DNA of 23,688 nt from IMG/VR virus record IMGVR_UViG_3300025138_000361, positions 1 to 23,688 of that record; one strand, 5' to 3'. Made by a program: the position numbers and the translations under genes. The notes beneath the pieces are model-generated. The model had not been told where the DNA came from. It was given only the letters and a program-made list of their open reading frames with translations, and ran no database searches. Within the stretch, counting starts at the first letter, position 1. Each line of letters begins with the position of its first letter. This stretch comes from a virus. Below are positions 7,074 through 23,688 of this stretch, in pieces.

Positions 7074-7347
7074 ATTTAATGAAGACAATACATTAAAACA
7101 AATAGAAAGATATATTAATAATACTTATGAGCAACACTATGCTTATGGAGAGTACCAAGCAACTGATGTTATCTTTGATAACGGACATGGTGATGGTTTC
7201 TGTATGGGTAATATTATAAAGTATGCTATGAGGTATGGTAAAAAACCTGACCCTGAAACTATGGAAGATAAAAACCAAACAGACTTGCTAAAGATTATAC
7301 ATTATGCTATAATGGCTATACATTTACAGGACATAGCAGATGATTGA
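7063..7347 (+). CDS. DUF3310-type protein (relative of T7 gp1.7 C-terminal region)
   Basis: The 94-residue product contains FCMGNIIKYAMRYGKK (47-61) and DLLKIIHYA (74-82), the hallmark segments of the DUF3310 family. That family includes part of the T7 nucleotide kinase gp1.7. The open frame extends back to 6940, but that part lies inside the endonuclease gene. GGAG at 7054-7057 sits at good distance from the ATG at 7063 (7060 is also possible). Placement directly before the ribonucleotide reductase genes fits a nucleotide-metabolism role. It is shorter than gp1.7 and shows no separate kinase P-loop, so kinase activity should not be assumed. Its last codons carry a probable nrdA promoter. Confidence 0.7.
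   Translation: MNYKFNEDNTLKQIERYINNTYEQHYAYGEYQATDVIFDNGHGDGFCMGNIIKYAMRYGKKPDPETMEDKNQTDLLKIIHYAIMAIHLQDIADD
7285..7313 (+). promoter_or_regulatory. Probable nrdAB promoter (extended -10)
   Basis: TTGCTA (7285-7290, four of six) and a perfect TATAAT (7308-7313) are separated by 17 bases, and TGC immediately before the -10 gives an extended -10 motif. Transcription would start near 7320, leaving a 20-base leader with AGGA (7328-7331) ahead of the nrdA ATG at 7340. The site lies within the end of the DUF3310 gene. Confidence 0.55.
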
Positions 7348-9235
7348 AGACAAGATAGGAACTAAGCCTTACTTAGGAATTGAAATAGACTACGATAAAG
7401 AAAAAACATTTGATAAATTTAGTCTCGACACATTAAAAGATAGATATTTTTGGGAGAAAGAAACACATGCACAAGAAGCATTCGCAAGAGCCTCCGTTTT
7501 CGGAGCAACCTTCAAAGGGGAAACAGATTTTGAGTTGGCTCAAAGACTTTATAACTACAGTTCCTCTCGTTGGTTCATGTTTAGCACTCCTATACTTAGT
7601 AACGGGGGAACAAGTCGTGGGCTTCCTATCAGTTGTTTCCTTAATTATGTTCCTGACAGCAGGAGTGGTTTATCTGCTCACTATGACGAGAACATATGGT
7701 TGGCTAGTTCAGGTGGAGGCATTGGTGGATATTGGGGCGATATTAGGAGCAATGGTATTTCAACTGCTCATGGCAGTCGTTCTACTGGCTCAATTCCTTT
7801 CATGCATGTCGTAGACTCACAGATGCTAGCCTTTAATCAAGGCACTACAAGACGTGGAAGCTATGCAGCTTACATGGATATAAGCCACCCTGAGATTGAA
7901 GAGTTTATTAACATGAGAAAAGAGTCAGGTGGTGATATAAACAGAAAAAATCTTAATCTTCACAATGGTATAAACATAACCAACACATTCTTACAGGCTG
8001 TTGAGAAAGATGAAGACTGGAGATTGATAGACCCTAAGACTAACGAAGCCGTGAAGATAGTAAACGCTAGAGATATATGGTGGCAGATTATACATGCAAG
8101 AGCAGAGACAGGTGAGCCTTACATGATTAACATAGACACATGTAATGACGCACTACCACAAAAACAAAAAGATTTAGGTTTAAGAATTAGACAGAGTAAC
8201 TTATGCTCGGAGATTACTTTACCTACTAACGAGGAAAGAACAGCAGTATGTTGTTTATCCTCAGTAAATTTAGAACACTTTGATGACTGGTCAAAGAACG
8301 ATAATTTTATACAAGATTTAATAACCATGCTTGACAATGTACTACAACATTATATTGATAACGCAATAGACACAACGCAATTAGGAGAATACAATGCAAA
8401 TTTTAAAAGGTTTCAAAAATATGTTAAGGAGGGCAAAGAAGGGTATACAAAATCTGCCTACTCAGCGTATAGAGAACGGAGTCTTGGACTTGGTGCTATG
8501 GGTTTCCATGCTTATCTCCAGTCTAGGAACATACCTTTCGAAGGTATATATGCAACTGGTTTTAACCACAAAGCATTTACTTACATCAAAACCAAAGCAA
8601 AAGCAGCTACTAAAGAATTGGCTGCTGAAAGGGGCGAAGCTCCTGACATTCATGGTACTGGTAATAGGAATGCTAATCTTCTTGCTGTTGCTCCTAACGC
8701 TAGTAGTGGTATCATTTGTAGTGGGACTTCTCCTAGTATTGAGCCTTACAGGGCTAACTGCTATACTCACAAAACTTTATCCGGAAGCTATCAAGTTAAG
8801 AATAAATACTTAGAAAAACTTTTAAAGTCTAAAGGATTAAAAGGAAAAGAACTAGAACAGATTTGGAAAGACATATCAGCTAACGAAGGTTCAGTACAAC
8901 AGTTAGATATATTAACTGATGATGAAAAAGAAATCTTTAAAACAGCTAATGAGATAAATCAAATATGGATTGTAGAACACGCTTACAAAAGACAAGAGTT
9001 TATTTGTCAAGCACAGTCAGTAAATTTATTCTTTACTCTACCGAAGTCAACAGAACCTCAAGAGATACACGATGCTTATATGCAGTATGTGAGTGATGTT
9101 CATTGGTATGGTATGAATAAATTAAAATCGTTGTATTACTTTAGAACTAATGCAGCACGTAATGTAGAGAATGTAAACACCAAAGTTCCACGTATAAGAT
9201 TAGACGATGTGGAATGTATCGCCTGTGAAGGGTAA
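7340..9235 (+). CDS. nrdA: Class I ribonucleoside-diphosphate reductase, large (alpha) subunit
   Basis: This 631-residue catalytic subunit reduces ribonucleotides to deoxyribonucleotides. Active-site residues are visible: C99 (PISCF) and C304 (AVCCLSS) match the E. coli redox pair C225/C462. N287, C289 and E291 (NLCSE) match N437, C439 and E441. Y599-Y600 (LKSLYYF) match the radical-relay Y730/Y731. The C-terminal C626-X2-C629 is the reductant-accepting tail. The protein starts about 126 residues short of the E. coli N-terminus, so the ATP-cone activity site is absent; such an enzyme may not be shut off by dATP. It overlaps the DUF3310 gene by eight bases and is followed nine bases later by nrdB. 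Confidence 0.96.
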   Translation: MIEDKIGTKPYLGIEIDYDKEKTFDKFSLDTLKDRYFWEKETHAQEAFARASVFGATFKGETDFELAQRLYNYSSSRWFMFSTPILSNGGTSRGLPISCFLNYVPDSRSGLSAHYDENIWLASSGGGIGGYWGDIRSNGISTAHGSRSTGSIPFMHVVDSQMLAFNQGTTRRGSYAAYMDISHPEIEEFINMRKESGGDINRKNLNLHNGINITNTFLQAVEKDEDWRLIDPKTNEAVKIVNARDIWWQIIHARAETGEPYMINIDTCNDALPQKQKDLGLRIRQSNLCSEITLPTNEERTAVCCLSSVNLEHFDDWSKNDNFIQDLITMLDNVLQHYIDNAIDTTQLGEYNANFKRFQKYVKEGKEGYTKSAYSAYRERSLGLGAMGFHAYLQSRNIPFEGIYATGFNHKAFTYIKTKAKAATKELAAERGEAPDIHGTGNRNANLLAVAPNASSGIICSGTSPSIEPYRANCYTHKTLSGSYQVKNKYLEKLLKSKGLKGKELEQIWKDISANEGSVQQLDILTDDEKEIFKTANEINQIWIVEHAYKRQEFICQAQSVNLFFTLPKSTEPQEIHDAYMQYVSDVHWYGMNKLKSLYYFRTNAARNVENVNTKVPRIRLDDVECIACEG

Positions 9236-9244
9236 GGAAAAGTT

Positions 9245-10216
9245 ATGAGTCTATTAAAAACTAGAGATTACTACAAACCGTTTGAGTACCCGTGGATGTA
9301 CGAGTACTATAAACTACAAAACCAAATGCACTGGATGCCTGAATCTGTACCGTTACATACAGACGTAAAAGATTGGCAGGACATTACACCAGAAGAAAAG
9401 CATTTACTTACACAGATATTTAGATTGTTTACTCAATCAGATGTTGACGTAGCTTCGGGCTACATAGATAAGTATATGCCTATCTTTAAAAAACCTGAAG
9501 CAAGAATGATGATGAGTTCTTTTGCTAACATGGAATCAATACATCAAGATGCCTACAGCTTACTACTTGATACAGTTGGTATGCCTGAAATAGAATACAA
9601 AGCTTTCTCAGAGTATGAAGAGATGTCTGATAAACATGATTATGTTGGGTCGTTTAAACCTCTTAAGTCTGATAAAAGAACTATAGCTAAAACACTAGCA
9701 GTTTACTCAGCTTTTACAGAAGGACTACAACTCTTTAGTAGCTTTGCTATCCTCCTTAACTTTCCTAGGTTTGGTAAGATGAAAGGTATGGGACAGATTG
9801 TTACTTACTCTATAAGAGATGAGTCAATGCACGTTGAAGCTATGACTAAATTGTTTAGAGAATTTATACAAGAGAACATAGAGATATGGACTGACGATTT
9901 TAAAGCAGAGCTATATCAAATATGTAGAGAAATGGTAGAGCTTGAAGATAAGTTCTTAGACTTAGTGTTTGAGATGGGAGACCTACAAGGTCTTACAAAG
10001 AAAGATATGTATGCTTACAACAGATACATTGCTGATAGAAGGTTACTTCAACTAGGACTTAAAACAAACTATGACCAAAAAGAAAATCCTTTAGGTTGGA
10101 TTGATGAGGTTATGGGTGTTGAACATCAGAACTTCTTTGAAGGTCGAGCTACTAGTTATATGAAAGCAGGTTTACGTGGTAAACAAAATGATGTAACTTT
10201 TGCAGGGATAGATTAA
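9245..10216 (+). CDS. nrdB: Class I ribonucleoside-diphosphate reductase, small (beta) subunit
   Basis: This 323-residue ferritin-like subunit makes the radical used by NrdA. Every metal ligand is present: D66, E97, H100, E159, E193 and H196 (MESIHQDAY, FTEGLQLF, RDESMH), matching E. coli D84, E115, H118, E204, E238 and H241. The radical tyrosine is kept at Y104, so it is not one of the tyrosine-less subclasses. The helical pattern and length are normal for phage NrdB. AAGGA stands just before the ATG. Its stop overlaps the next start as TAATG. Together with nrdA it would boost the dNTP supply of the infected cell. Confidence 0.96.
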   Translation: MSLLKTRDYYKPFEYPWMYEYYKLQNQMHWMPESVPLHTDVKDWQDITPEEKHLLTQIFRLFTQSDVDVASGYIDKYMPIFKKPEARMMMSSFANMESIHQDAYSLLLDTVGMPEIEYKAFSEYEEMSDKHDYVGSFKPLKSDKRTIAKTLAVYSAFTEGLQLFSSFAILLNFPRFGKMKGMGQIVTYSIRDESMHVEAMTKLFREFIQENIEIWTDDFKAELYQICREMVELEDKFLDLVFEMGDLQGLTKKDMYAYNRYIADRRLLQLGLKTNYDQKENPLGWIDEVMGVEHQNFFEGRATSYMKAGLRGKQNDVTFAGID

Positions 10217-11151: not shown

Positions 11152-14100
11152 TTAATTTTTAATAAGGTTTGAAGCTTCTTCTAAACGATTTACAATACCA
11201 CTAACTTTCCCACCTTTGTCAGCAATTTTTTTATGTTTACGATATTCTTTATGGTTTAATAATTCTGTAGCAGCAGCTTCGTATTTTTTTTCGTTAAATA
11301 ATTTAACCCAAGTATGATTTTTTTTCATATCACCTCTATATCCTAAAGACATTAAAGCTTTTTGTTTATCTTCAGAAAGATTATCAAAATTAGGAATTTT
11401 TTCTTTAACTCTCTGCAGTTGAACTTTATATGTTTCTTTAAAAGATTGACCCATAAATTCACCTGTTTGACCAGCACCGCTTGTTAAGATATTTTTAGTA
11501 TCTTTATATTTACCCTCAACAAAACCTTCCTCACTAACCACATACTTTTGTAAAGTATTTAAACTGCCTTCACGTTTAACTACTTCTGCAACAGCATCAG
11601 AACCATAATATTTTTTAGGTGTTGAAGAACCTCCGCCTTCTGTAAATCCTAACCTTGCCATCTGGTCTGAGTAAGGTTTACCTGTAACAGGATTTATTCT
11701 GTCAGCAGGGTCTTCTTCTACATTAGGAACTAACCCACCAGTTTTATAATTTTCTCTTAAGTCTTCTTTAATTTCTTTTACTTTTTTTCGTTGTGTTTTA
11801 TAGTGTTCAGGATTATAATATATAGGTAACTGTGACATTTGTGAATCTATAGTATTAACATCTAAAAGTACTTTTAAAAAAACATCTATGTTTCCATTTG
11901 TTTTATCTATAAGAGAAGCTTTCATGTCATCAGTTAAACCTAAAGGTTGAAATGTTTCAGAAAAAAAAGGAATTTTATCTTTTCTTGATAATCTTGATTC
12001 TTGAAGAACAGCTAATGGTTCTAGTTCAAAAGCTTTAAGAGACTTTGTTAGTTTATGAAACTTAGCAGTTTCTTGATAGTATCTATTATTTATATCTAAA
12101 TATTTATTAGTAAATTTATCTGCTTCTAAAGTACCATCTATACCATCAAACAACTCCTTTCTAAGAGTTGATTTTTTAGTAACAAATTGATTAGCTTTCA
12201 TTTTATACATATTACTTATGTATTCTGGGTTTAAAGGTTGCATACCCCAGCCTGTAACAAACTTCATAAAAGCTTGAGCTTCATAGATGTCTTGGTCAAA
12301 AGATGTTTTATCTGTATCTGCTGTTAATGTTTTATGTAAATCTCTTGCTCTAGTAATAGAACCCGGTGTAATGCTTTCTGTCATATTAGAAAGTAAAATT
12401 GAAAGGTTGTTTGTGTTAAAAATATTACCAGCAAAAGTTCCTGTGTCTTGAAATCTATTTTTATTATAAGCATTTTTTATTGCTTTACCTTCTATAGTTC
12501 TACCACCCCTATAAAAGAAGTCACCTAATTGTTCTTGTATAATTGATTCACCTAAAAAAGGAGAAACAGTTTCACTAAGAACAGTTGTCATTATTTCTTG
12601 TGCTAGTCCTTCTTCATCTATATTATCTGCATCTAAATATTTATTAATTAAAACTTGAAAAGGTTTTTTAGGGAAATCATAAGCGTCCCAGCTACTTAAA
12701 TTAGCTACTACAGGAGAACCATCAGGAGCAACACTTACAACTACATTAGAGTTTTGCATATAGTCTGGTAAAAAATCTTTAGCTGCGTCAACTAATTCTG
12801 TAGTAAAACCAGAAGCAACTTGACTTACTTTTTCAGCTCCTTTAGCTCCTACTCCAGCCATAACTGTAAAAGCAACTAATCTTTTTTGTCCTCTTTTTAT
12901 AACTTCTTGTCCAGCAAGTACGTCTCCGTCTTTTTTCATTTGACGACCTAGCTTAACTTCTTTAATCCCATTCATAACAGAGTTTCCTGTTATTCTAACT
13001 GACTCAGCCATGAATGAAAAGAACCTTCCAAAGAAAGGAGTTCTTCTTAAGTCTTGTAATAGTTCAGGTACTAAATCATAATTAGGTAAAGTATCTCTAA
13101 CCATTTTAGCTGCTCTTTCTTTTAATTCTTGTTCAGTCATCTTATACTTAGAGCCATCAACAAGCTTGTCATTCATTTGTTTTAAGTAATCTGTTTCTCT
13201 TAAATACATATTTATTTTAAAGAAATCATCTTCAGCTACGTAAGCATTCTGAGCTTTTTCACCTAATTTTTTAAGACCTGTTTTATCAAAAACCCAATCT
13301 AACTTACCAGATACAAAACCCTTTTTCATTTTACCTAAATCATTAGCTAAACCTTTTAAATCTCTAGCTACTACACCTTTGTTTAAAAGACCTAATGAAC
13401 TTAACTCTTCGTGAAATTCTTGTAGTTCTCTATCATTAGAAGTTTTAGCTCTTAAAAGTTTTACAATTTTTTTAGTTTCTTTTATACTAAAAACATTTAC
13501 TCCGTTAGCTAAAGACATTTGAACACCACCCGCTACATTTTTAACGTGAGTAGTATGAGACCAAACTGTTTTAGAAGCTTGTGATAAACCTTTTAACATA
13601 AGGGCATTACGATAAGTTCCACTAAGAACATTATCTCCAGCTAACCAACTTTCTGACGTTTTTTTATAGTCAGAAAAATATTTCCAAAGTTCTTTTGTAG
13701 TATGTCTACCTGATAAATTACCAAATCCTTCAGGTATTAATTCTTTAAAAGCTCCTTCTGGTTCTTCTCTAAAATAAATACCAGCACCGCTTTCAAAAGC
13801 GTCATCATAAAATTTAACATTTTCTACATAATTAGAAAGTTTAGCTGTTGAATGAATAAAAGATTGTATAGGGTCTTCTATTTCTCCCATTAATCTTCTT
13901 AGCTCATTAGGAATTTGTTTACGACCTTTTAAAATTTCTTTTCTAACGCGTTCAAATTTATCTATAGAAGAACCTAGTGAACTTCCTTGTCTTACATCTA
14001 ATATATCATCTATCTCTGCTTTAACTTGTGTTAATATTTCATCAGCATCTAACTTTGGATTAGATTTTTTAAGTGCTGCTGTTAAATAAATTTCAGCATC

Positions 14101-15798
14101 TTTTAATACACTTGTTGTAGGAATATAATTAGGGTCTTCAAATAATTTGTATGAACGTCTAACATAAAAACCTAACTGGTCTCTATACATTTCTTGTTGC
14201 TTTGCTGTAAGTGTTCCACTATCTATCATAGCTTCAGTTAAATCATCTTGAAGTTTTCTAGCATTTCTTAAAGGTTCTCTTAATACTTCAGGTAGTTTAT
14301 TTAACTCTTTTTCAAAAGTTTGTTTTTGTCCTTTACCAACTGACAGACCACGCTTACCTCCAACAATAGTAGGAGTTCTAAAATCTGTGTAGAGTACAGT
14401 ATTTATTTGCTCTAATAACTTTTCTTTGTTTTTAAATTTACCTTTAGATAAATTTTGTACTACATTTTCAATAGCTACTTGTGCGTTAAAACCTAAGTTT
14501 GCTATAGTATCATCCCAAGATTCTTTTTTATTTTCAGATTTTAAATACTTTTCATGTAGTTCTCTAGTTCTATTTCCTCTAGTAGTTAAAAGTTTTCTTC
14601 TCCAAGACTCCATAGTTCTAGCTAAAGAACTTTCACTAAACATTAAACTAGTTTTAAATCCAAATTTACTTATAATGGGTCCGGGTTTAAGAGCATTTAC
14701 ATCTCCTTCACTCACAACTTTTCCATCTGCAATATCTTTTTTTCTATGTTTTAATGCTAATCTTTTTTGAGCTTTGTTAAGTTCAGTACTGTCTTCTATA
14801 CCTTTAAAAAATTTATCTATAGATTCTTGTCCGCCTTGTTTAACTTCTTTTAACATTTCTATAAAACCTTCCCCACCTTCTTTAATTTTTTTCAAAGATA
14901 ATTGACCAACTTTAGTTAAGCCTGTTACATTACTAATAACACCAGCTCCTTTAAGTGTTCCAATAAAAGCTCCTGTTAAGACTAGTCCTTCACCTAATAA
15001 CTTTAATCTTTTTTCTAACTCATTATCATTTGTGTCTGTACTAAGAAATTCTTTTAAACTTTGAAAGTTTTTTGAGTCTGCGGGAATTGCATCTGCTATA
15101 TATTGCACTAATATATCTTCATTAGGATTAAAAGCTACCTGTGTAGCAACTTCACCAGATACTAAACCTTGTTTAAAGCCTTGAGAAGGTGCAAATTTTT
15201 TAAGATTTGAAGGTAAGTATTGTTTAAGTTTTGAAGGTGCTTCTCCAATATTTTTAATAGCTTTAGTTTTACCAGCTCCTAACATTAATGCTACAAATCC
15301 ACCCATTTCTCTAGTTAGTTCTTTACCAAAACCGTCTGGACTTTTAGCTATAGGCATTGGAGGTCTATCACCTCTGTCTTCCATACGAATATTATCTTCA
15401 CCTAATGCAAAGTTATAAAAAGTTTTTAATTTTTGATTAACTGCATCATCTAAAGCATACTCAGCTTTGTCAGAAAGTGGTTGGTAAAAAGGATTTAAAG
15501 CTTTGTTAGCTTTACTAACTAGTTTATCTTTATTTTTAAAATCAGGTATGTTGTCTGCTATTTTTTTTACAGGCTCTAGGTCTCTCATCATTCTATAAAG
15601 GTCTGCTGTTTCATTTACAACACGTGTAGCTATTCCCGGCATAGTTCTTTTAAATTCATCAGCTGGATTTTTATCGTACGCCTCAAAATTTAAATTATAT
15701 TTTGACCTAAGTTTTTCTTTTTCTTCTTCAGATAAAGTAACACCATTTTTTAAAAGTAATTTACCTTCATCATCAAAAGAATATTTTTTTTCTAACAT
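11152..15798 (-). CDS. Giant internal virion/ejection protein with C-terminal T4-type lysozyme domain
   Basis: This 1548-residue protein is by size and place the likely counterpart of T7 gp16, an internal virion protein ejected into the cell envelope with the DNA. Most of it is hydrophilic, Lys-rich and helical, with no family I recognise. A few hydrophobic patches occur, for example near GEGLVLTGAFIGTLKGAGV. The last ~145 residues are a T4-lysozyme-like domain. EEGFVEGKYKDTKNILTSGAG carries E1424, D1433 and T1439 at exactly the spacing of T4 E11, D20 and T26. Thus it probably cuts peptidoglycan. T7 gp16 instead has an N-terminal transglycosylase. The gene starts one base after the 483-residue gene, with no clear ribosome-binding site. 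No other lysin lies in this window, so a dual role in entry and lysis is conceivable. Confidence 0.8.
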   Translation of the reverse strand: MLEKKYSFDDEGKLLLKNGVTLSEEEKEKLRSKYNLNFEAYDKNPADEFKRTMPGIATRVVNETADLYRMMRDLEPVKKIADNIPDFKNKDKLVSKANKALNPFYQPLSDKAEYALDDAVNQKLKTFYNFALGEDNIRMEDRGDRPPMPIAKSPDGFGKELTREMGGFVALMLGAGKTKAIKNIGEAPSKLKQYLPSNLKKFAPSQGFKQGLVSGEVATQVAFNPNEDILVQYIADAIPADSKNFQSLKEFLSTDTNDNELEKRLKLLGEGLVLTGAFIGTLKGAGVISNVTGLTKVGQLSLKKIKEGGEGFIEMLKEVKQGGQESIDKFFKGIEDSTELNKAQKRLALKHRKKDIADGKVVSEGDVNALKPGPIISKFGFKTSLMFSESSLARTMESWRRKLLTTRGNRTRELHEKYLKSENKKESWDDTIANLGFNAQVAIENVVQNLSKGKFKNKEKLLEQINTVLYTDFRTPTIVGGKRGLSVGKGQKQTFEKELNKLPEVLREPLRNARKLQDDLTEAMIDSGTLTAKQQEMYRDQLGFYVRRSYKLFEDPNYIPTTSVLKDAEIYLTAALKKSNPKLDADEILTQVKAEIDDILDVRQGSSLGSSIDKFERVRKEILKGRKQIPNELRRLMGEIEDPIQSFIHSTAKLSNYVENVKFYDDAFESGAGIYFREEPEGAFKELIPEGFGNLSGRHTTKELWKYFSDYKKTSESWLAGDNVLSGTYRNALMLKGLSQASKTVWSHTTHVKNVAGGVQMSLANGVNVFSIKETKKIVKLLRAKTSNDRELQEFHEELSSLGLLNKGVVARDLKGLANDLGKMKKGFVSGKLDWVFDKTGLKKLGEKAQNAYVAEDDFFKINMYLRETDYLKQMNDKLVDGSKYKMTEQELKERAAKMVRDTLPNYDLVPELLQDLRRTPFFGRFFSFMAESVRITGNSVMNGIKEVKLGRQMKKDGDVLAGQEVIKRGQKRLVAFTVMAGVGAKGAEKVSQVASGFTTELVDAAKDFLPDYMQNSNVVVSVAPDGSPVVANLSSWDAYDFPKKPFQVLINKYLDADNIDEEGLAQEIMTTVLSETVSPFLGESIIQEQLGDFFYRGGRTIEGKAIKNAYNKNRFQDTGTFAGNIFNTNNLSILLSNMTESITPGSITRARDLHKTLTADTDKTSFDQDIYEAQAFMKFVTGWGMQPLNPEYISNMYKMKANQFVTKKSTLRKELFDGIDGTLEADKFTNKYLDINNRYYQETAKFHKLTKSLKAFELEPLAVLQESRLSRKDKIPFFSETFQPLGLTDDMKASLIDKTNGNIDVFLKVLLDVNTIDSQMSQLPIYYNPEHYKTQRKKVKEIKEDLRENYKTGGLVPNVEEDPADRINPVTGKPYSDQMARLGFTEGGGSSTPKKYYGSDAVAEVVKREGSLNTLQKYVVSEEGFVEGKYKDTKNILTSGAGQTGEFMGQSFKETYKVQLQRVKEKIPNFDNLSEDKQKALMSLGYRGDMKKNHTWVKLFNEKKYEAAATELLNHKEYRKHKKIADKGGKVSGIVNRLEEASNLIKN

Positions 15799-15799
15799 A

Positions 15800-17251
15800 T
15801 TATTCTGTTGGATTATTATAAGCGTCTAAATACCCTTGGTATCCTGCAGTTAACGCTGCAGTTTTAGCCATTAGATACTCACTTTGAGTTTTATATCTGT
15901 ACGTTTTATTTTCGTCATAGGTATCGGTCTCTCTTGCATATTCTTCAATAGTTGGATTGATAAGTGCAGCTTGATAAGGGTCTGCAAAACTATCAGCAAC
16001 AATATTAAACATTTCAGCGTTTATTTTTCCTATACCTGCTACTGCAATAGCCCTTTCGAACCGTCTTACATCAGCTGACATTGGATGTTTTTCTTTGGTT
16101 GTGTAATTACCTGCGGCTATATCTTGGTCTATTAACTTTTCTAAATCAGCTAACTCAAAAATATCAGACCTTAATTTTCTTGACTCAACATTATCTACTT
16201 TATTTGCTGCATCTAAATTATTTGCTTTTCTTAAATAATAATTTACATAAGTGGCATCGTCTGCAGTAGGAGTAGTTTTTTTATTATTCTTTAACTTCCA
16301 CTCTGTATCAAACGCTCTATTAATTCTATAATTATTTTCTATTATAGCATCAAAGTTTGTTTGAGTTCCTATAATATGTAAGTCTAGTTCATTTCGAGTA
16401 TAAACTTTAGCTTCACCGTTATCATTTGTTTCTGAAAGAGTACGTATAGCTTTTTGTCTAGCTATATTATCATTGCCCATTTCTGATATAATGTACTTTG
16501 CACCTTCAGTATGTGTATAAGTAAAGGTATCTTCGTCAAAAGATTTTGAAGGTATTTGTTCTTCTTTAGTAAAAGCAACAGGGTCTAATAAAAAATCATA
16601 GACACTACGCGTTGCAGTTTGTTTTTTAGCTTCTTCAGTAGCCGGTGTTAATATATCTTTTTTACCAAATTTATTTGTAAACTTATCCCAACCATTGTGT
16701 ATTAAACTTAAATTTTTAGAAGAGGCAGCTTCTTCTGCTCTGCCATCATAGTAATCTTCAAAAGGTTTAAAGAATACTTCTTTAGTCATTCTTTTATCTT
16801 CAAAGTTACCACTCTTAATTAAACTTTCATGGTTTTCTATTAAAGCTTTTTCGTATTCTTTTATTTCTTGTTCTTTTGTAGCTCTAGAACTTTTATTATT
16901 AGGATTTAATTGAAAATAATTAGGATGTTGTTTATTAAACGCTGTAGTAGCTGTATTATAAAAATAAGAAGGATTTTCTATATACTTTTCATTATTTGTC
17001 ATTAAAGTATCATACTTTTTATGTTTAGCATTCATGTTAGCCATTTCAAAAACTTTTTCTTTTTCAATTTGTTCTAAGTTTTTTAGAACTTTCTTTTCCA
17101 TGTTTTTTTGTTTTGTACCTACAATAAGCTGACCTAACATTAAGTTTCTTATTTTATTACTGTCTTTAGATTTACTTGAAAAATAACTTTGAGCTATATC
17201 TTGCCAGCTAGACTTGTTTTCTTTACCTAATAAATTTTTAAAATCTATCAT
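15800..17251 (-). CDS. Putative internal virion protein (gp15-like position)
   Basis: The 483-residue product is hydrophilic and rich in Asn, Lys and Glu, with coiled-coil-like stretches near residues 48-75 (KNMEKKVLKNLEQIEKEKVFEMANM) and no membrane segment or known motif. It stands between a small structural-type gene and the lysozyme-bearing giant, the place of gp15 in T7. A role in the ejection apparatus is therefore inferred from order and composition alone. AGAGGT precedes its start, within the end of the upstream gene, which stops one base before. Confidence 0.55.
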   Translation of the reverse strand: MIDFKNLLGKENKSSWQDIAQSYFSSKSKDSNKIRNLMLGQLIVGTKQKNMEKKVLKNLEQIEKEKVFEMANMNAKHKKYDTLMTNNEKYIENPSYFYNTATTAFNKQHPNYFQLNPNNKSSRATKEQEIKEYEKALIENHESLIKSGNFEDKRMTKEVFFKPFEDYYDGRAEEAASSKNLSLIHNGWDKFTNKFGKKDILTPATEEAKKQTATRSVYDFLLDPVAFTKEEQIPSKSFDEDTFTYTHTEGAKYIISEMGNDNIARQKAIRTLSETNDNGEAKVYTRNELDLHIIGTQTNFDAIIENNYRINRAFDTEWKLKNNKKTTPTADDATYVNYYLRKANNLDAANKVDNVESRKLRSDIFELADLEKLIDQDIAAGNYTTKEKHPMSADVRRFERAIAVAGIGKINAEMFNIVADSFADPYQAALINPTIEEYARETDTYDENKTYRYKTQSEYLMAKTAALTAGYQGYLDAYNNPTE

Positions 17252-17252
17252 C

Positions 17253-17846
17253 TTATACCTCTTCTTTAGCTAATAAGCTTTGATTTGTTTCTTGTTCTAC
17301 TTTTTGTAAAATAGAAGGTTCTATTGTAGTTTCTTCTATTACTTTTCTAACTTCTGTTGGGACTGATTGAGGACTTACTCTACTAGCTGCTAGTTTTCTT
17401 GCAGACTCTAATGAACCTACTCCTTTTTCTATTTTAGCTAAAGCTTTATCACCTAATATTTCTTCTTCATTATTATCGTCAGCATCCATTCTATAATCTA
17501 TGTCTGCTTTTTCTGCAAGAGCCATAATCATAAACATTACTGGCTCAAGTAATAAAACCATTAAGTCAGGATTCCATTTACCTTCTGTAAAACCATTATA
17601 CAGTGTTATAGATGCAATGTCAATAACACCTACACCTTTACTTAAAGATAATAAAATATTAGCTGTTGTTTCAGGGACTGTTAAAATTTCAAACACAGCA
17701 TACATTGCTTCACGTGCGTTAGTAAACTCAGTTGGTTTTTCCCAGTTATATTTTTTGTCTGGAGAATTAGTTAAACTTTGTCCGGGAATAGCTTTCCCTC
17801 TTTCTAATCCTTGTTGAATAAAATTCATTGCTTGTTCTGTTGCCAT
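17253..17846 (-). CDS. Hypothetical virion-associated protein with a hydrophobic helix
   Basis: The 197-residue product has a hydrophobic segment at about 95-111 (LMVLLLEPVMFMIMALA) followed by a very acidic stretch (DADDNNEEEI) and a charged C-terminus. Its length matches T7 gp14 (196 residues), a membrane-inserting ejection protein, but no sequence likeness is visible, so this is only positional. AGGAT lies upstream of the ATG. The gene carries a perfect consensus promoter in its own strand (17595-17623). Confidence 0.55.
   Translation of the reverse strand: MATEQAMNFIQQGLERGKAIPGQSLTNSPDKKYNWEKPTEFTNAREAMYAVFEILTVPETTANILLSLSKGVGVIDIASITLYNGFTEGKWNPDLMVLLLEPVMFMIMALAEKADIDYRMDADDNNEEEILGDKALAKIEKGVGSLESARKLAASRVSPQSVPTEVRKVIEETTIEPSILQKVEQETNQSLLAKEEV
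17595..17623 (-). promoter_or_regulatory. Perfect sigma70 consensus promoter inside the late operon
   Basis: On the minus strand TTGACA (17623-17618), 17 bases, then TATAAT (17600-17595) match the consensus fully. The start would fall near 17588, transcribing toward the 483- and 1548-residue genes and the holin-like gene. The bases also code for IDIASITLYN, so chance cannot be excluded. Confidence 0.5.
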
Positions 17847-17855
17847 TGTATTATC

Positions 17856-18929
17856 CTATGTTCTTATTGTTGGATTAGGAAGAGGTTGGTACATATGTTG
17901 TATATGATTAGGAGAACCTGTTCCATATAAAGTTTGATTTGCCATATCTGTATAACTTTTTATGTTTGTTAAACCAAGACCGTTTAATTGTGAAGTCATA
18001 TCTCGCATATGAGCTACTTGAGCTTGTTCTGATAAAGGTTGTCCCATTACCTGTCCACCGCCACCAGTCTGCTCTTCTTGAGGATTAAAGTAATTAGAAA
18101 TTGCTCCTGAACCTACAGTTTTAATAGTGTCTGGAACAAAGTCTCCTTTAATATACTCACGTGCGTCAGTTACTTTTTCTTTTGTAAACTTTTTAGTACT
18201 ATCAAAAGTGTTACTAGCAAACCTGTTTATTTTTTCTCCAACAGTTGCATCTGTAGGTAACCTTGCATATTCTGAGGGATTGTTAACAGCGTCCATAAAA
18301 GTAGAACCTTCTTTAGGTGTTAGACGATTAGTTTCAAATATGTTGCCTTTTTCTACAAATGCATCTGTACTAAAATCTATAGGTTGTTCATTTAAAGTTT
18401 TAAAAACATCTGCATTTGTTTGACTTAAAATTTGTTCACTATTAGCTGAAGCATCAATAATTAAATCTGTAGGAGAAGTAGCAAGACTAGGTGCTGTCTG
18501 ACCGCTTTTTACTAAATTTTCTGATTTACCAATAAAGTCATTAGTTAAGTCCATTCTTGACATAGCTTTTTCATTTAATGTACTATCTAAATTACTAGTT
18601 AATGCTTCAACTCCTTTAGCTGTTTTTGATTCTAATGTTATAGCTGCATCTTTAGCAAGAGCACTGGTTGTACCTAATGATTCTGCTTCAACTGCTGTCC
18701 CTGCTGCTTCTGCTGCTTGTGCAGTCAGTTCAGATGCTTTAGTAGCAACATTCGTTGACGCAGCCGACCCTTTTCCAAACAAACTTTGAGTCCACCCTGA
18801 TAATTGTTTAGCAGCAGCACCCATTACAAAGTATAAACCAACCATACCTACAATTTTACCTAGTTTAGCACCAAAAACTTTCTTTAATTTTTTGTTTACT
18901 TTTCTACCTATTTTTCTTAAAAATCCCAT
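17856..18929 (-). CDS. Putative structural/ejection protein with basic N-terminus and membrane segment
   Basis: The 357-residue product opens with a strongly basic amphipathic stretch (GFLRKIGRKVNKKLKKVFG). A hydrophobic segment follows at about 28-44 (VGMVGLYFVMGAAAKQL). The body is Ala/Ser/Thr-rich and low in complexity. A Gly/Gln-rich patch near residues 295-305 (TGGGGQVMGQPLSEQ) comes before the end. A basic lead followed by a membrane-active helix suits a protein that enters the host membrane during DNA ejection. This is inference, as no family is recognised. AGGA lies upstream of the ATG. It lies ten bases after the repeat-rod gene and nine before the next. Confidence 0.55.
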   Translation of the reverse strand: MGFLRKIGRKVNKKLKKVFGAKLGKIVGMVGLYFVMGAAAKQLSGWTQSLFGKGSAASTNVATKASELTAQAAEAAGTAVEAESLGTTSALAKDAAITLESKTAKGVEALTSNLDSTLNEKAMSRMDLTNDFIGKSENLVKSGQTAPSLATSPTDLIIDASANSEQILSQTNADVFKTLNEQPIDFSTDAFVEKGNIFETNRLTPKEGSTFMDAVNNPSEYARLPTDATVGEKINRFASNTFDSTKKFTKEKVTDAREYIKGDFVPDTIKTVGSGAISNYFNPQEEQTGGGGQVMGQPLSEQAQVAHMRDMTSQLNGLGLTNIKSYTDMANQTLYGTGSPNHIQHMYQPLPNPTIRT

Positions 18930-18939
18930 AATATTTTTC

Positions 18940-21900
18940 CTATGTTGTGTAACTTGAATTTGAAACTAAGCTAGTTAATAAAGCTAACATGTATGCGTCA
19001 TACTGCTCACCAGCTTTACCTTCGTTAGCTATAGCTGTTGATATTATTTGTGCTTTTCTGTTTTCGTCATTCTCACCACTTCTAAAATCAAAATCTGCTT
19101 GGTCTCTTAGTTCTTGCCATAAGTAAGATTGTGACTGCATGGTCATACCATAAGAATTCTGTGCGTTCTGTGCATTAATTTGATTTTGAGCAGCAGTATT
19201 AATTGTATTAGTTTGTCTTCTCCATTGTACATTAGATGCTTCAACAGCAGCTGAGTTTTGTGCGTTCCAATTATTTCTTGCAAAGTCTTGTTGACTATTA
19301 AACTGGTCAACTTGTGTTAGTAACTGTGCATTAAACTTTTCAGTTTCTGCTTCTCTACCAGCTCGTCTAGCTTCTGCTGCGTTTTTTTGTGTAGCGTTAA
19401 ATTGTCCCATTGCATTAGTTTGAGAAGCATTATATTGGCTCATTTGTGCACTAAGATTAGTCATAAATGTATCTGCTTGTTGTTGATTAGCTGCACCAAA
19501 TTGTTTTGCAGCGTTAGAAGAAGCTTGGTCAGACAATAATCTTTGTTGTTCTTGTTGAGCTTTCATCATGTTAGCTTGTTGATTATTATTAAGATTAGCC
19601 ATATCCATAGTTAAAAAGCTTTGAGCATTTGTAACTGCTAATCTTTCTTGAGTAGATAAGTTTGCTAAATCTAAAGATGCCATAGCTGTAGCATCTTGCA
19701 TAATTGCTTGTTGTTCAGCGTTCATATTAGTAAGAGCTACAGTTTGCATAAACTTACTATTAGCTAATTCTGTTTGTTGTGCAGCACTAAAGTTTGCCAT
19801 GTCCATACCAGCATTGACCTGTGCTTTATTCATTGCAGCTTGTTGGTCATTACTTAATTCTGCTAACCCTAGTTGCTGTGCTAACTGTGCATTAGTCTGA
19901 GCAGCAGCCATACGTTTATTTAAATCTGCTAACTCAAATTGATTTTCAGCTGACATACTTTCACTATCAGCTTGATTCTTAGAAGTTAAATTAGCTAAAG
20001 AAACTTTTTCACTTGTACTAAGCTTTGCCATGTCAGCATTTTGTAGTAGTTGTTGATTTTGAGAAAGAACTTGAACAGTTGTATTTAGTTCTTGCATTCT
20101 AAATCTATTGTCTTCTGTAAAGTTAGCTGCATCTGCTGCACTTTTTTCAGAAAGCATAGCAAGTTCCATTTGCTGTTCATTGCCCAAGTTAGCTAAGTCC
20201 ATTTGTTGTGCTAGCTCTGCATTACCTTTTCTAAAATTTACTAAGTTTTGTAAGTTAGTTAATCTCATTTGTTGTTCAGAACTCATGTTAGCTCTAGATG
20301 TAGTATTACGTTCTGATAACTCAGCTAATTCTACTTTAAGTTTAGAATCTAAATTAACTTCTTCCATACGTGCATTAAGTTCTGCTTGTCTTGTAGACCT
20401 TTGAACTACAGCGTTTAACTCAGATAATCTAAATTGATTATCAGTTGTAAAGTTTGCAGAGTCTGCTGCGGCTTTTTCTTGTAACATAGCAAGTTCAACC
20501 TGCTGTTCATTAGACATGTTAGCCAAGTCCATTTGCTGTGCAAAGTTAGCATCAGTTTTTCTAAAATCTATTAAAGTTTGTAATTCTGTAAGACGTTCCG
20601 TATTTTCTGCTGTCATTGTATCTTTAGCAGCTGCATTCATTTCAGAAACTCTTTGCATCTCAACCTGAAGCTCACCCGAAAGCATAGCTTTTTCCATATC
20701 TTGATTCAAATCTGCTTGACGCATTACTTTATTTACTTGAGCATTATATTTAGTTAATCTAACTTGTTGGTCAGCATCTAACTGTTTACCGGCTCTTGTA
20801 CTTTCTGCTTGTAAGTTAGCTAAGTCCATTTGGGCATTAACACTTAAAGTAGAAACTATTACCTGTTGTCTCTGAGATGATTCTTGTTGAGCACGTTGTT
20901 GACCCATCTGAGCATTAAGAACATTTACATCTTGTCTTTGCTGAGAAGTAGTCATCGCAGCTTGTTGATTAAAAGTACCTTGTTGTACTTTAATTTGTTG
21001 AGCCATTTCAGCAGTCTGAGTAGCAGCTGTTTGTCTATTAGACAAGTTCTGCATTCTAAGTTGCATACTAGATTGAGCTTGTTGCAAGTTAGCTGTTTGT
21101 TGATTACTTAAATTTTGTTGTGCTCTTTGTTGTAAAGCACTTGCGTTAGATTGTGCCATTGGTAAAGCACTTTGAATAATAGCATTAAACATAGCGTCTC
21201 TACCGACTGTAGATACAGACATTCCTCTAGCAGCTAACTGTTGATTAATTGCATCAACAGCTGGTTTAGCCCATAGTGGAGTTTCTCCATCTTCCATTCC
21301 TGCTAATAGTCCTGACATTTGAGTAGATACTAAAGCTTCTATAGGTAAAGCAGCAATAGCAGCTGTTACTTCTACAGGTTGTTCATCTATCTGAGCTTCT
21401 ACAGTTGCAGGGTCTTCAGCGATTGCAGCAGTTGTTTCTTCTGGAACATCAGCTATAACTCTCATCATGTCAGCAGCAGCTGTAACACGTTCTTTACCCT
21501 GTACTGCTTCCATTTGAGCAGCTGCTAAAGTAGGAATACCACCAATTTGTGCAGCGTCCCCTTGAGGTGCAGTTCCTGTAATAGCTCCACGTCCTTTTAA
21601 ATCTATTGGAGGTGCAGTTCCTAGTTCTTGAGCTATTTTAGTTTTAGCTTCTGCTACTTGAGCTGTTCTAACAGCAGCTTTTTCAAAATTAGGAGTACCA
21701 TCAATTGTTGTGTCGTTAGCTTCAGGAGTATAATCAGCACCATAATATACAGCTTTAGCAGCTTCTTTTTCTGCAGTTGCTTCTATTATATTTTCTTCTC
21801 TTGTAGCTGCCCTTCCTACTTGTGCAGTTCTTGCAGAAGCTTTTTGATACTCTGGAAGCTCTTCAAGCTTTACACCTCTTTCTTGAGCAAGAGATTTTAA

Positions 21901-22626
21901 AACATTAAGTTCAGCAGTAGTTATTTCTTTACCAGTTCTTGTTACTTCGTCAGCTCTAGTAACAAATTCTTGTTGAACTTTTGTTCCTTTTTGACCTTCA
22001 AAAGTTGATGCGTCACTAACAGTTCCAGTTACGTTTGGAGCTAACTCGTTACTAACATCAGTAACTTGAGCTGCATTTGTTTTTTGTGTTAGTGTTTTTT
22101 CATCTACTTTAGCTTCTCTTGTAACACTTCCTTGAGCAGCATTAGCATCAGCAATACCAGCTGTATCAGCTGTATAAGTAGCACCTGTTACTTTATCTTT
22201 TATTACACCTTTATCTAGTGTGTCTACAGTATCTACAGTTTCACCTTGTACACCTTCTGCAGTGTACTCTTTGCTTGCTATAGTGTTATCTTTCATTGGA
22301 TTAATTTTCTGAGTAGGTATACGTATAGGATTACCAGCACTATCAGTTTTTATTGTGCCGTCAGAATTCATCTCAAACCCTACTTTTTCAGCAGCAGGTA
22401 GTTTATCTGATTGAGGAACGCCTTCACCTTGTGCTGCTCTTTCAATCATTTCAGCACTTCTAGCTATTCTTTTATTTCTTTCTTGAGTAGCTGTAGTGTC
22501 TCCCAACATTTGAGCACCAGTAATAGGAGTAGTTCCACCTCCGCCACCTCCGCCGCCTTGAGCATAGCCTATTCTTTTATTAGAACCTTTATTATATTTT
22601 TTACGTGTTGTTTTTTTATTTTTCAT
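18940..22626 (-). CDS. Giant repeat-rod virion protein (1228 residues)
   Basis: Four zones are visible. Residues 1-35 are basic and end in eight glycines (codons at about 22532-22557 on the plus strand). Residues 35-480 are Ala/Thr/Glu-rich. Residues 480-600 are extremely Gln-rich (SNQQTANLQQAQ). Residues 600-1028 are a rod with strict 11-residue periodicity. A Gln/Asn-rich C-terminal part follows to 1228. The rod should be a long coiled coil. The composition and the late-operon place say virion component, such as a fibre, tail rod or core scaffold. I do not recognise a characterised family. No Shine-Dalgarno precedes the ATG, although a possible promoter sits six bases away. It is the second largest gene here. 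Confidence 0.75.
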   Translation of the reverse strand: MKNKKTTRKKYNKGSNKRIGYAQGGGGGGGGTTPITGAQMLGDTTATQERNKRIARSAEMIERAAQGEGVPQSDKLPAAEKVGFEMNSDGTIKTDSAGNPIRIPTQKINPMKDNTIASKEYTAEGVQGETVDTVDTLDKGVIKDKVTGATYTADTAGIADANAAQGSVTREAKVDEKTLTQKTNAAQVTDVSNELAPNVTGTVSDASTFEGQKGTKVQQEFVTRADEVTRTGKEITTAELNVLKSLAQERGVKLEELPEYQKASARTAQVGRAATREENIIEATAEKEAAKAVYYGADYTPEANDTTIDGTPNFEKAAVRTAQVAEAKTKIAQELGTAPPIDLKGRGAITGTAPQGDAAQIGGIPTLAAAQMEAVQGKERVTAAADMMRVIADVPEETTAAIAEDPATVEAQIDEQPVEVTAAIAALPIEALVSTQMSGLLAGMEDGETPLWAKPAVDAINQQLAARGMSVSTVGRDAMFNAIIQSALPMAQSNASALQQRAQQNLSNQQTANLQQAQSSMQLRMQNLSNRQTAATQTAEMAQQIKVQQGTFNQQAAMTTSQQRQDVNVLNAQMGQQRAQQESSQRQQVIVSTLSVNAQMDLANLQAESTRAGKQLDADQQVRLTKYNAQVNKVMRQADLNQDMEKAMLSGELQVEMQRVSEMNAAAKDTMTAENTERLTELQTLIDFRKTDANFAQQMDLANMSNEQQVELAMLQEKAAADSANFTTDNQFRLSELNAVVQRSTRQAELNARMEEVNLDSKLKVELAELSERNTTSRANMSSEQQMRLTNLQNLVNFRKGNAELAQQMDLANLGNEQQMELAMLSEKSAADAANFTEDNRFRMQELNTTVQVLSQNQQLLQNADMAKLSTSEKVSLANLTSKNQADSESMSAENQFELADLNKRMAAAQTNAQLAQQLGLAELSNDQQAAMNKAQVNAGMDMANFSAAQQTELANSKFMQTVALTNMNAEQQAIMQDATAMASLDLANLSTQERLAVTNAQSFLTMDMANLNNNQQANMMKAQQEQQRLLSDQASSNAAKQFGAANQQQADTFMTNLSAQMSQYNASQTNAMGQFNATQKNAAEARRAGREAETEKFNAQLLTQVDQFNSQQDFARNNWNAQNSAAVEASNVQWRRQTNTINTAAQNQINAQNAQNSYGMTMQSQSYLWQELRDQADFDFRSGENDENRKAQIISTAIANEGKAGEQYDAYMLALLTSLVSNSSYTT
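19543..19872 (-). repeat. Five tandem 22-residue repeats in the rod protein
   Basis: Residues 919-1028 of the 1228-residue protein are five units of 22 residues, starting at 919, 941, 963, 985 and 1007. They open LGLAELS, MDMANFS, VALTNMN, LDLANLS and MDMANLN, usually with QQ or Q(E/D)R following. Each unit is two 11-residue turns. DNA identity between units is modest, so the repeats are old and kept at protein level. Confidence 0.85.
19873..20829 (-). repeat. 44- and 55-residue repeats in the rod protein
   Basis: Residues 600-918 repeat with unit starts at 600, 644, 699, 754, 809 and 864: one spacing of 44, then 55 each time. Units at 699 and 809 are the closest pair (MDLANMSNEQQ against MDLANLGNEQQ, then EKAAADSANF against EKSAADAANF). 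This shows a 110-residue (330-base) duplication on top of the 55-residue unit. All spacings are multiples of 11. Confidence 0.85.
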
Positions 22627-23188: not shown

Positions 23189-23688
23189 TTACCCTTCTAG
23201 GGTTGTTATTCTAGTTGTTAATGCTTCTATTAAAGCGTTTTGTTCTTGTATAGCTTTTACAAGCATTGGTATTAATGAAGAAGGACCAATACGTTGTCTG
23301 CCGTCAGCATCGTCTTCTTTCCACATATCAAAACCATCTTTTAATTCTGAATGAGCATCAATAGCTGTTTTAATTTCTTGTGCTATAAAACCATGATTAG
23401 TGTAATCGTTCATAACACGCTTATCAGAACCTTCTACATACGCTCTTTGTGTATTAGGAATATCTTTTTCTTTTTTCCATTTAAAAGTAACAGGGCGTAA
23501 ATCTTTTATAAAAGATAATCCTGCGGTAGAGTCAGTAATTTCTTCTTTATATCTTTCATCAGAAGGAGCTGTAATTGAAGTAGCACCAAAAGCAATAGCT
23601 GAGTCAGTAGTACCCTCACCAAAACAAAATGATGTATTAGCATTACCTACAGCACCTCTACCCATAACTATTTGATTATGCCCACCAG
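23189..23688 (-). CDS. Tail fibre/spike C-terminus with S74 self-cleaving chaperone domain (partial)
   Basis: The frame stays open to the window edge, so this is the 3' end of a larger gene; the ATG at 23665 is internal. The last 124 residues are a Peptidase S74 intramolecular chaperone. APSDERYKEEI supplies the catalytic Ser (codon 23563-23561) and Lys five residues later (codon 23548-23546). SFIKDLRPVTFKWK, HGFIAQE and a C-terminal coiled coil (IQEQNALIEALTTRITTLEG) follow. In this family the domain helps the fibre trimer fold and then cuts itself off just before the Ser. The part upstream (GRGAVGNANTSFCFGEG) is Gly/Asn-rich fibre-type sequence. It is the receptor-binding or adhesion end of the virion. 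Confidence 0.88.
   Translation of the reverse strand, partial: GGHNQIVMGRGAVGNANTSFCFGEGTTDSAIAFGATSITAPSDERYKEEITDSTAGLSFIKDLRPVTFKWKKEKDIPNTQRAYVEGSDKRVMNDYTNHGFIAQEIKTAIDAHSELKDGFDMWKEDDADGRQRIGPSSLIPMLVKAIQEQNALIEALTTRITTLEG

Follow-up and report, generated by a model that had tools for sequence, protein, structure and literature searches.

What does a 1,228-residue virus protein with a long 11-residue repeat do, and how far does the repeat extend? The window analyzed here, the whole 23,688-base IMG/VR virus record, carries replication genes rightward (a primase/helicase, a DNA polymerase, a Cas4-type exonuclease, and a ribonucleotide reductase), with virion genes among those that run leftward. 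The gene in question, called the rod-protein gene below, is an open reading frame at positions 18940 to 22626 on the minus strand; its relatives come from 26 phage records and from hundreds of IMG/VR contigs. Its product had no significant match in Pfam, PHROGs, or NCBIfam; the PDB was searched by sequence, both with single proteins and with alignments, and again nothing relevant came up. A literature search found no published virion proteomics or functional label for the gene; a paper on the group (PMC9038755) includes several genes of unknown function in its list of core genes.

The nearest named relatives belong to Pelagibacter phages HTVC103P, HTVC104P, and HTVC115P, Roseobacter CRP phages, Puniceispirillum phage HMO-2011, Vibrio phage CHOED, Pseudoalteromonas Slicky01, Aeromonas MQM1, and Rhizobium phages, which seem, judged by name and description, to be podoviruses. 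The rod protein belongs to a virus type that is abundant in the sea. One homologue (L041:5035-7626) is annotated as "huntingtin," an annotation that looks spurious and was probably chosen for its glutamine content; annotations of the type "dimodular nonribosomal peptide synthetase" on phage genes (among L032:1068-2627 and L033:1-1452) look spurious as well. The genome scan for relatives returned only contigs in metagenome bins, and pairs of phage-like contigs that share name and length (L242/L245 and L243/L244) were binned in metagenome-assembled genomes of two different phyla. Because identical contigs were binned in two phyla, such labels give no host, and we infer none.

The array keeps a single 11-residue register throughout. 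A cyclic 11-state hidden Markov model (HMM) gave one unbroken run from residue 490 to residue 1157 (60.7 units) with zero phase jumps. When 21 consecutive 33-residue chunks (490 to 1182) were scored singly under an emission model whose training left out the window's clade, all chose the same phase, a few at low scores; the longest unbroken run in 200 shuffles was 62 residues. Self-identity peaks fell only on multiples of 11, led by lags 110 (z = 18) and 55 (z = 12) and followed in order by 66, 77, 22, 44, 88, 33, 99, and 11. Relatives nearly always gave single runs under the HMM, of 60.7 to 60.9, 52, 42, 41, 30.5, 23, and 16 to 20 units. The strict register put forward in the first-pass annotation of this DNA is thus borne out by self-identity, the HMM, the leave-out chunks, and the phase of the anchor distance described below. 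The unit starts it named (residues 600, 644, 699, 754, 809, 864, 919, 941, 963, 985, and 1007) lie where it placed them and all in register, although those at 644 (MEKAML) and 754 (MEEVNL) are only weak matches to the motif. Its 429-residue extent (600 to 1028) describes a real array but covers only about two-thirds of it. It was right that the repeat is not of the usual heptad kind: power at 3.5 was 0.1 over the array, by which a heptad coiled coil was rejected.

Several zones can be told apart in the protein, all on the minus strand. Residues 1 to 451 (positions 21274 to 22626) form a variable region with a low-complexity start, and it is chiefly in the equivalent of this region that the total length of relatives varies. 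A conserved N anchor follows (residues 452 to 489, positions 21160 to 21273; WAKPAVDAIN..RGMSVSTVGRD..QSALP), defined by alignment A1 and an anchor model. The whole array, delimited by the HMM and the leave-out chunk test, spans positions 19156 to 21159. It begins with an N arm (residues 490 to 599, positions 20830 to 21159) recognized by zone composition. The middle, in the coordinates of the first-pass annotation (positions 19543 to 20829), is marked by zone composition and by the positions of the motif h-x-L-A-N-L-[STND]-x-E-Q-Q, and the C arm (residues 1040 to 1157, positions 19156 to 19509) carries the motif h-x-x-F-N-A, with phenylalanine at position 4 in its zone composition. A tail conserved in alignment A1 (residues 1158 to 1228, positions 18940 to 19155), including LWQELRDQADF, ends the protein. 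In the HMO-2011 clade, the rod protein (L068:4200-5618) has an extra C-terminal helical region (CWVAREVYG, AlphaFold2 [AF2] pLDDT of about 68 to 83), which the window protein is without and which had no significant Pfam match.

The register is also kept across the family. The distance between two anchors, the proline of SALPMAQ (residue 489) and the tryptophan of QWRR (residue 1135), equaled 8 modulo 11 in 164 of 166 unique complete proteins, the window's included, and with the anchor models frozen it did so in all 95 new relatives of a second set, giving 259 of 261 over both. The window protein belongs to the family as defined here, having both the conserved N and C anchors and an 11-residue array that links them, and its distance is 646 (646 modulo 11 is 8). 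The two exceptions have distances of 193 and 317. They are L168, whose N anchor lies inside the array and whose array starts at residue 3 of the open reading frame, pointing to a truncated start, and L055, in which a single residue is inserted no more than ten residues from the C anchor. Distances otherwise took the values 118, 151, 162, 173, 184, 217, 228, 239, 250, 316, 338, 426, 448, 536, 558, 646, 668, 778, and 866. Compared by unit number, as the first-pass annotation had suggested, relatives keep the spacing in phase and change length by whole multiples of 11. That the array stands in one fixed register under a family-wide phase rule is nearly certain.

Lengths are further quantized in two ladders, 316+110k and 228+110k, with a common step of exactly 110, and all 61 proteins of at least 426 in the first set fall on 426+110k; shorter relatives can differ by one single 11. 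C-arm trees imply at least 27 length-class changes in the first set and 17 in the second. These counts come from only about 180 columns, and exchange between C arm and array by recombination could have raised them. The shortest array (L392, 118 residues between anchors) consists almost exclusively of C-arm type units, a composition which suggests the C arm as the ancestral core.

The dominant internal repeat, which the first-pass annotation did not notice, is 110 residues long. Residues 644 to 753 (positions 20368 to 20697) and 754 to 863 (positions 20038 to 20367) are 52% identical, and the third codon positions of their shared residues agree at 0.68 compared to 0.64 expected. This is near random, so the duplication is old and has been kept at the protein level. 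A recent DNA tandem repeat was rejected, since Tandem Repeats Finder (TRF) gave only a 42-base match there and third positions are near random. Within one clade, units 22 to 31 of a 646-class protein (L001) map onto units 12 to 21 of a 536-class protein (L172); read from their alignment, the difference is a clean in-register duplication of the block of units 12 to 21. The 426-class relatives are without 220 residues in the region of block copy 2, seen in A1 as gaps of 110, 55, and 55. On the second ladder, identity at lag 110 reaches 0.40 to 0.50 in the three 668-class proteins and the 778-class protein, and the 110-residue block divides evenly into five units of 22 residues. The 55- and 22-residue units of the first-pass annotation are therefore present, but as sub-periods of one 110-residue block. 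Its proposal of growth by in-register duplication stands, with phase kept throughout the family apart from the two exceptions above and steps of exactly 110 within long-rod clades. These comparisons show that the array changes length by whole hendecads, mostly through duplication or loss of 110-residue blocks.

The shape that had been expected of this array fared less well. Hydrophobic power over the array was 32 to 35 at 11/4 and 11/5 where measured. At 11/3, where a peak had been predicted, it was 2.4 over residues 490 to 1157 and 8.7 over residues 600 to 1029, weak in the stretch first described and relatively strong only in the C arm (mean power 5.0), where 11/3 is among the strongest peaks. 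The canonical hendecad coiled coil, with its single stripe of core positions a, d, e, and h, accordingly fails for the middle, and the C arm comes nearest to it. Power at 11/4 and 11/5 implies two opposite hydrophobic seams: by composition, hydrophobic positions 1 and 3/6 lie on opposite sides of a helix with 3 turns per 11 residues, and the faces are polar and rich in asparagine and glutamine. In a crude ring model, eight or more helices fit the array better than two to five, at modest correlations (0.4 to 0.64) and with a lumen side that flips with the hydrophobicity scale. As controls, the model returned a dimer for the GCN4 zipper and, for the phiX174 heptads, large rings with positions 1 and 4 facing the lumen. 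The phiX174 repeats were taken from PMC7354561, and positions 1 and 4 hold most of the H-tube residues listed there as inward.

AF2 of residues 440 to 1228 (a monomer prediction from 24 sequences, pTM 0.31) placed the middle in helices of about 16 and about 30 residues, with pLDDT mostly 70 to 86, and drew both arms as long helices at low confidence, the N arm for most of its length. For the HMO-2011 homologue (63 sequences), it gave a continuous C-arm helix of 141 residues with pLDDT of 70 to 81 over most of it. Foldseek searches against the PDB found only de novo helical repeats and short helical domains, with E above 0.1, and a BFVD search gave a few apparent relatives plus long-helix noise. 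Going by these models, the helix content of the array is likely high. The prediction is helix-rich, in contrast to the non-helical fold that the first-pass annotation had set against its own proposal, although the middle appears as broken helices, and the single 64-nm rod it envisaged is not what AF2 draws.

The main rival to a conduit role is a hairpin-type core component. The middle would then be an α-solenoid or helical-hairpin scaffold of 55-residue, two-helix units located in the capsid around the portal (a core stack), and only the C arm would be a long helix. The AF2 model and a capping motif argue for hairpins in the middle: the shorter and longer helices alternate and repeat every 55 or 110 residues, and the capping-type pattern A-N-L-[STND]-x-[ED] occurs in the middle and less in the arms. 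Register position 7 of the middle is 69% S/T/D/N/G, a helix-capping preference. The A1 gaps of 110 and 55 would suit such units, as would the proline that follows serine at one capping-type site in some relatives. Against the scaffold, there is no PDB fold match, and the model is a monomer built from few sequences with low pTM. Five 22-residue units per block, an odd number, would reverse an antiparallel path, yet the second ladder steps by single 110s, and shorter relatives differ by a single 11. Both of these features argue for a continuous rod, as does the count of zero prolines in the 668-residue array of the window protein. We consider the scaffold unlikely, though it is the best of the alternatives.

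Gene order offers a further line of evidence. Following the rod gene, all on the minus strand, are genes for a 357-residue protein with a basic amphipathic N terminus (positions 17856 to 18929), homologues of which adjoin many long-rod relatives; a 197-residue protein with hydrophobic stretches near residues 64 and 93 (positions 17253 to 17846), with a homologue in 39 loci across the family; a 483-residue protein of unknown function (positions 15800 to 17251); and a 1,548-residue protein (positions 11152 to 15798) that has a C-terminal phage lysozyme domain (residues 1423 to 1538) and matches a virion structural protein family in part. The 197-residue protein had no PDB match and no convincing PHROG match; a pore function, from its two hydrophobic stretches, would be a guess. 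The order [rod]-[small or 357 residues, missing in some]-[164 to 248 residues, conserved]-[medium]-[giant] is syntenic in HMO-2011-type and other, diverse podoviruses, with the rod gene at its head. Podovirus ejection operons run small, medium, giant (PMC8954989), and the cassette resembles them; in the window it pairs a small, putatively pore-like protein with a giant one bearing a peptidoglycan hydrolase, the combination we used to recognize an ejection cluster. By this analogy, the rod gene probably belongs to an ejection cassette.

Other features of these loci are recorded here. A short tandem repeat of period 24 lies inside the 1,548-residue gene (positions 15185 to 15240). In Pelagibacter phage HTVC115P, a gene annotated as a toxin-activating lysine-acyltransferase (L228:4528-4977) directly follows the rod gene. 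The ribonucleotide reductase of the window (positions 7340 to 10216) is of the two-subunit kind, matching large and small subunit families, unlike the adenosylcobalamin-dependent enzyme annotated near the same cassette in HMO-2011. Near the contig end, a C-terminal S74 chaperone-of-endosialidase domain (positions 23189 to 23665) matches tail spike and fiber families.

Tail-fiber genes just upstream of the rod gene raise the alternative of an external fiber or whisker. In this case, two to five chains would form a long parallel coiled coil on the virion surface, with repeats extending its reach to receptors. Variable length is common in fibers, and hendecads occur in right-handed coiled coils. 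Nevertheless, two opposite hydrophobic seams suit a small bundle poorly, diverse phages keep the rod gene in synteny with the putative ejection cassette, and no adhesin or chaperone domain was detected in the rod protein, making this role improbable.

The weakest candidate takes up the idea of the first-pass annotation that the array sets the length of a virion part: a length ruler in assembly, as a tape measure or scaffold length control. Quantized lengths would suit it, but the named relatives appear to be podoviruses and hence lack a long tail that a ruler could measure. No other part is known to be measured, and the gene context points rather to an ejected protein, so we give it very little credence.

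Comparison with known ejection proteins gave no sequence or fold match to any of them, T7, P22, and DEV included. A register model trained on the rod proteins nevertheless picked residues 143 to 177 of phiX174 H (19.8 bits; 0 of 1,000 shuffles reached this score), which is the hendecad part of the H tube, and put Q151 at rod position 11, the phase expected beforehand from the sequence printed in PMC7354561. The leave-out model scored phiX174 H at 17.4 compared to a maximum of 14.0 in 171 control open reading frames, that maximum being T7 gp14. Among 74 annotated proteins of five phages, phiX174 H ranked first, T7 gp14 second, P22 gp20 fifth, and N4 gp52 sixth (top-six enrichment, post hoc hypergeometric p = 0.0024). 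The register in other ejection proteins may reflect shared chemistry and not descent.

The likenesses differ from system to system. The phiX174 H tube, which has an N/Q/R-rich lining and three hendecads followed by eleven heptads (PMC7354561), shares with the rod protein an 11-residue α-helical register, hydrophobic residues at matching positions, and glutamine in the same phase. In contrast, it has only three hendecads compared to about 11 to 81 in the rod family, and it comes from an unrelated virus group with no detectable homology. The T7 gp14-gp15-gp16 ejectosome is likewise that of a podovirus, with small, medium, and giant proteins, the last with a peptidoglycan hydrolase, in operon order and a weak register segment at residues 15 to 53 of gp14. 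However, gp15 and gp16 are without the register, there is no sequence match, and the present cassette starts with an additional large repeat protein. In Schitoviridae, the DEV gp72-gp73 channel is a long tube of helical ejection proteins (PMC10925440). A weak register segment occurs in N4 gp52, which resembles gp73 in position and size, whereas N4 gp51, gp72-like by position, has none, and homology is not detectable. HMO-2011 gp25 (ADW08438) and its CRP, HTVC, and CHOED counterparts are homologues in the same cassette, annotated as hypothetical, but their anchor distances are 151 to 316 compared to 646, and their N and C termini differ.

We propose, with a probability of roughly 0.5, that the virus is an HMO-2011-type podovirus and the rod protein one of its ejection proteins (internal virion or pilot proteins), with helices that help to build a DNA conduit, largely by analogy with these systems. 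The conduit role itself is held more tentatively than the place of the gene in the cassette. Several copies would exit the capsid by way of the short tail and pack laterally, with their seams in contact, forming an α-helical tube lined by glutamine, asparagine, and serine. Its working would resemble that of the phiX174 H tube or of the channels of T7 (gp14-gp15-gp16) and DEV (gp72-gp73). The core would be the short C arm, which all relatives examined have, even at only 118 residues between anchors, and the middle blocks would be clade-specific extensions that change the length of the tube or are partly folded back. On this view, the phase rule would follow from a need for every subunit to present identical seams from one end of the helix to the other. 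Against a conduit, the long forms would measure about 97 to 130 nm if fully helical, which far exceeds the periplasm. In a bolder version, which we consider unlikely, the ejected conduit is a modular ruler, and duplication or loss of 10-hendecad blocks would set its length in digital steps.

As a natural experiment, the phase rule is unusually clean: among 261 proteins spanning 118 to 866 residues between anchors, all but two kept register, and it indicates strong selection on 11-residue helical phase along the whole array. Array length offers a testable handle on how podovirus ejection proteins cross the cell envelope. If the modular-ruler version is true, related marine phages would carry conduits of different, quantized lengths suited to different host envelopes.
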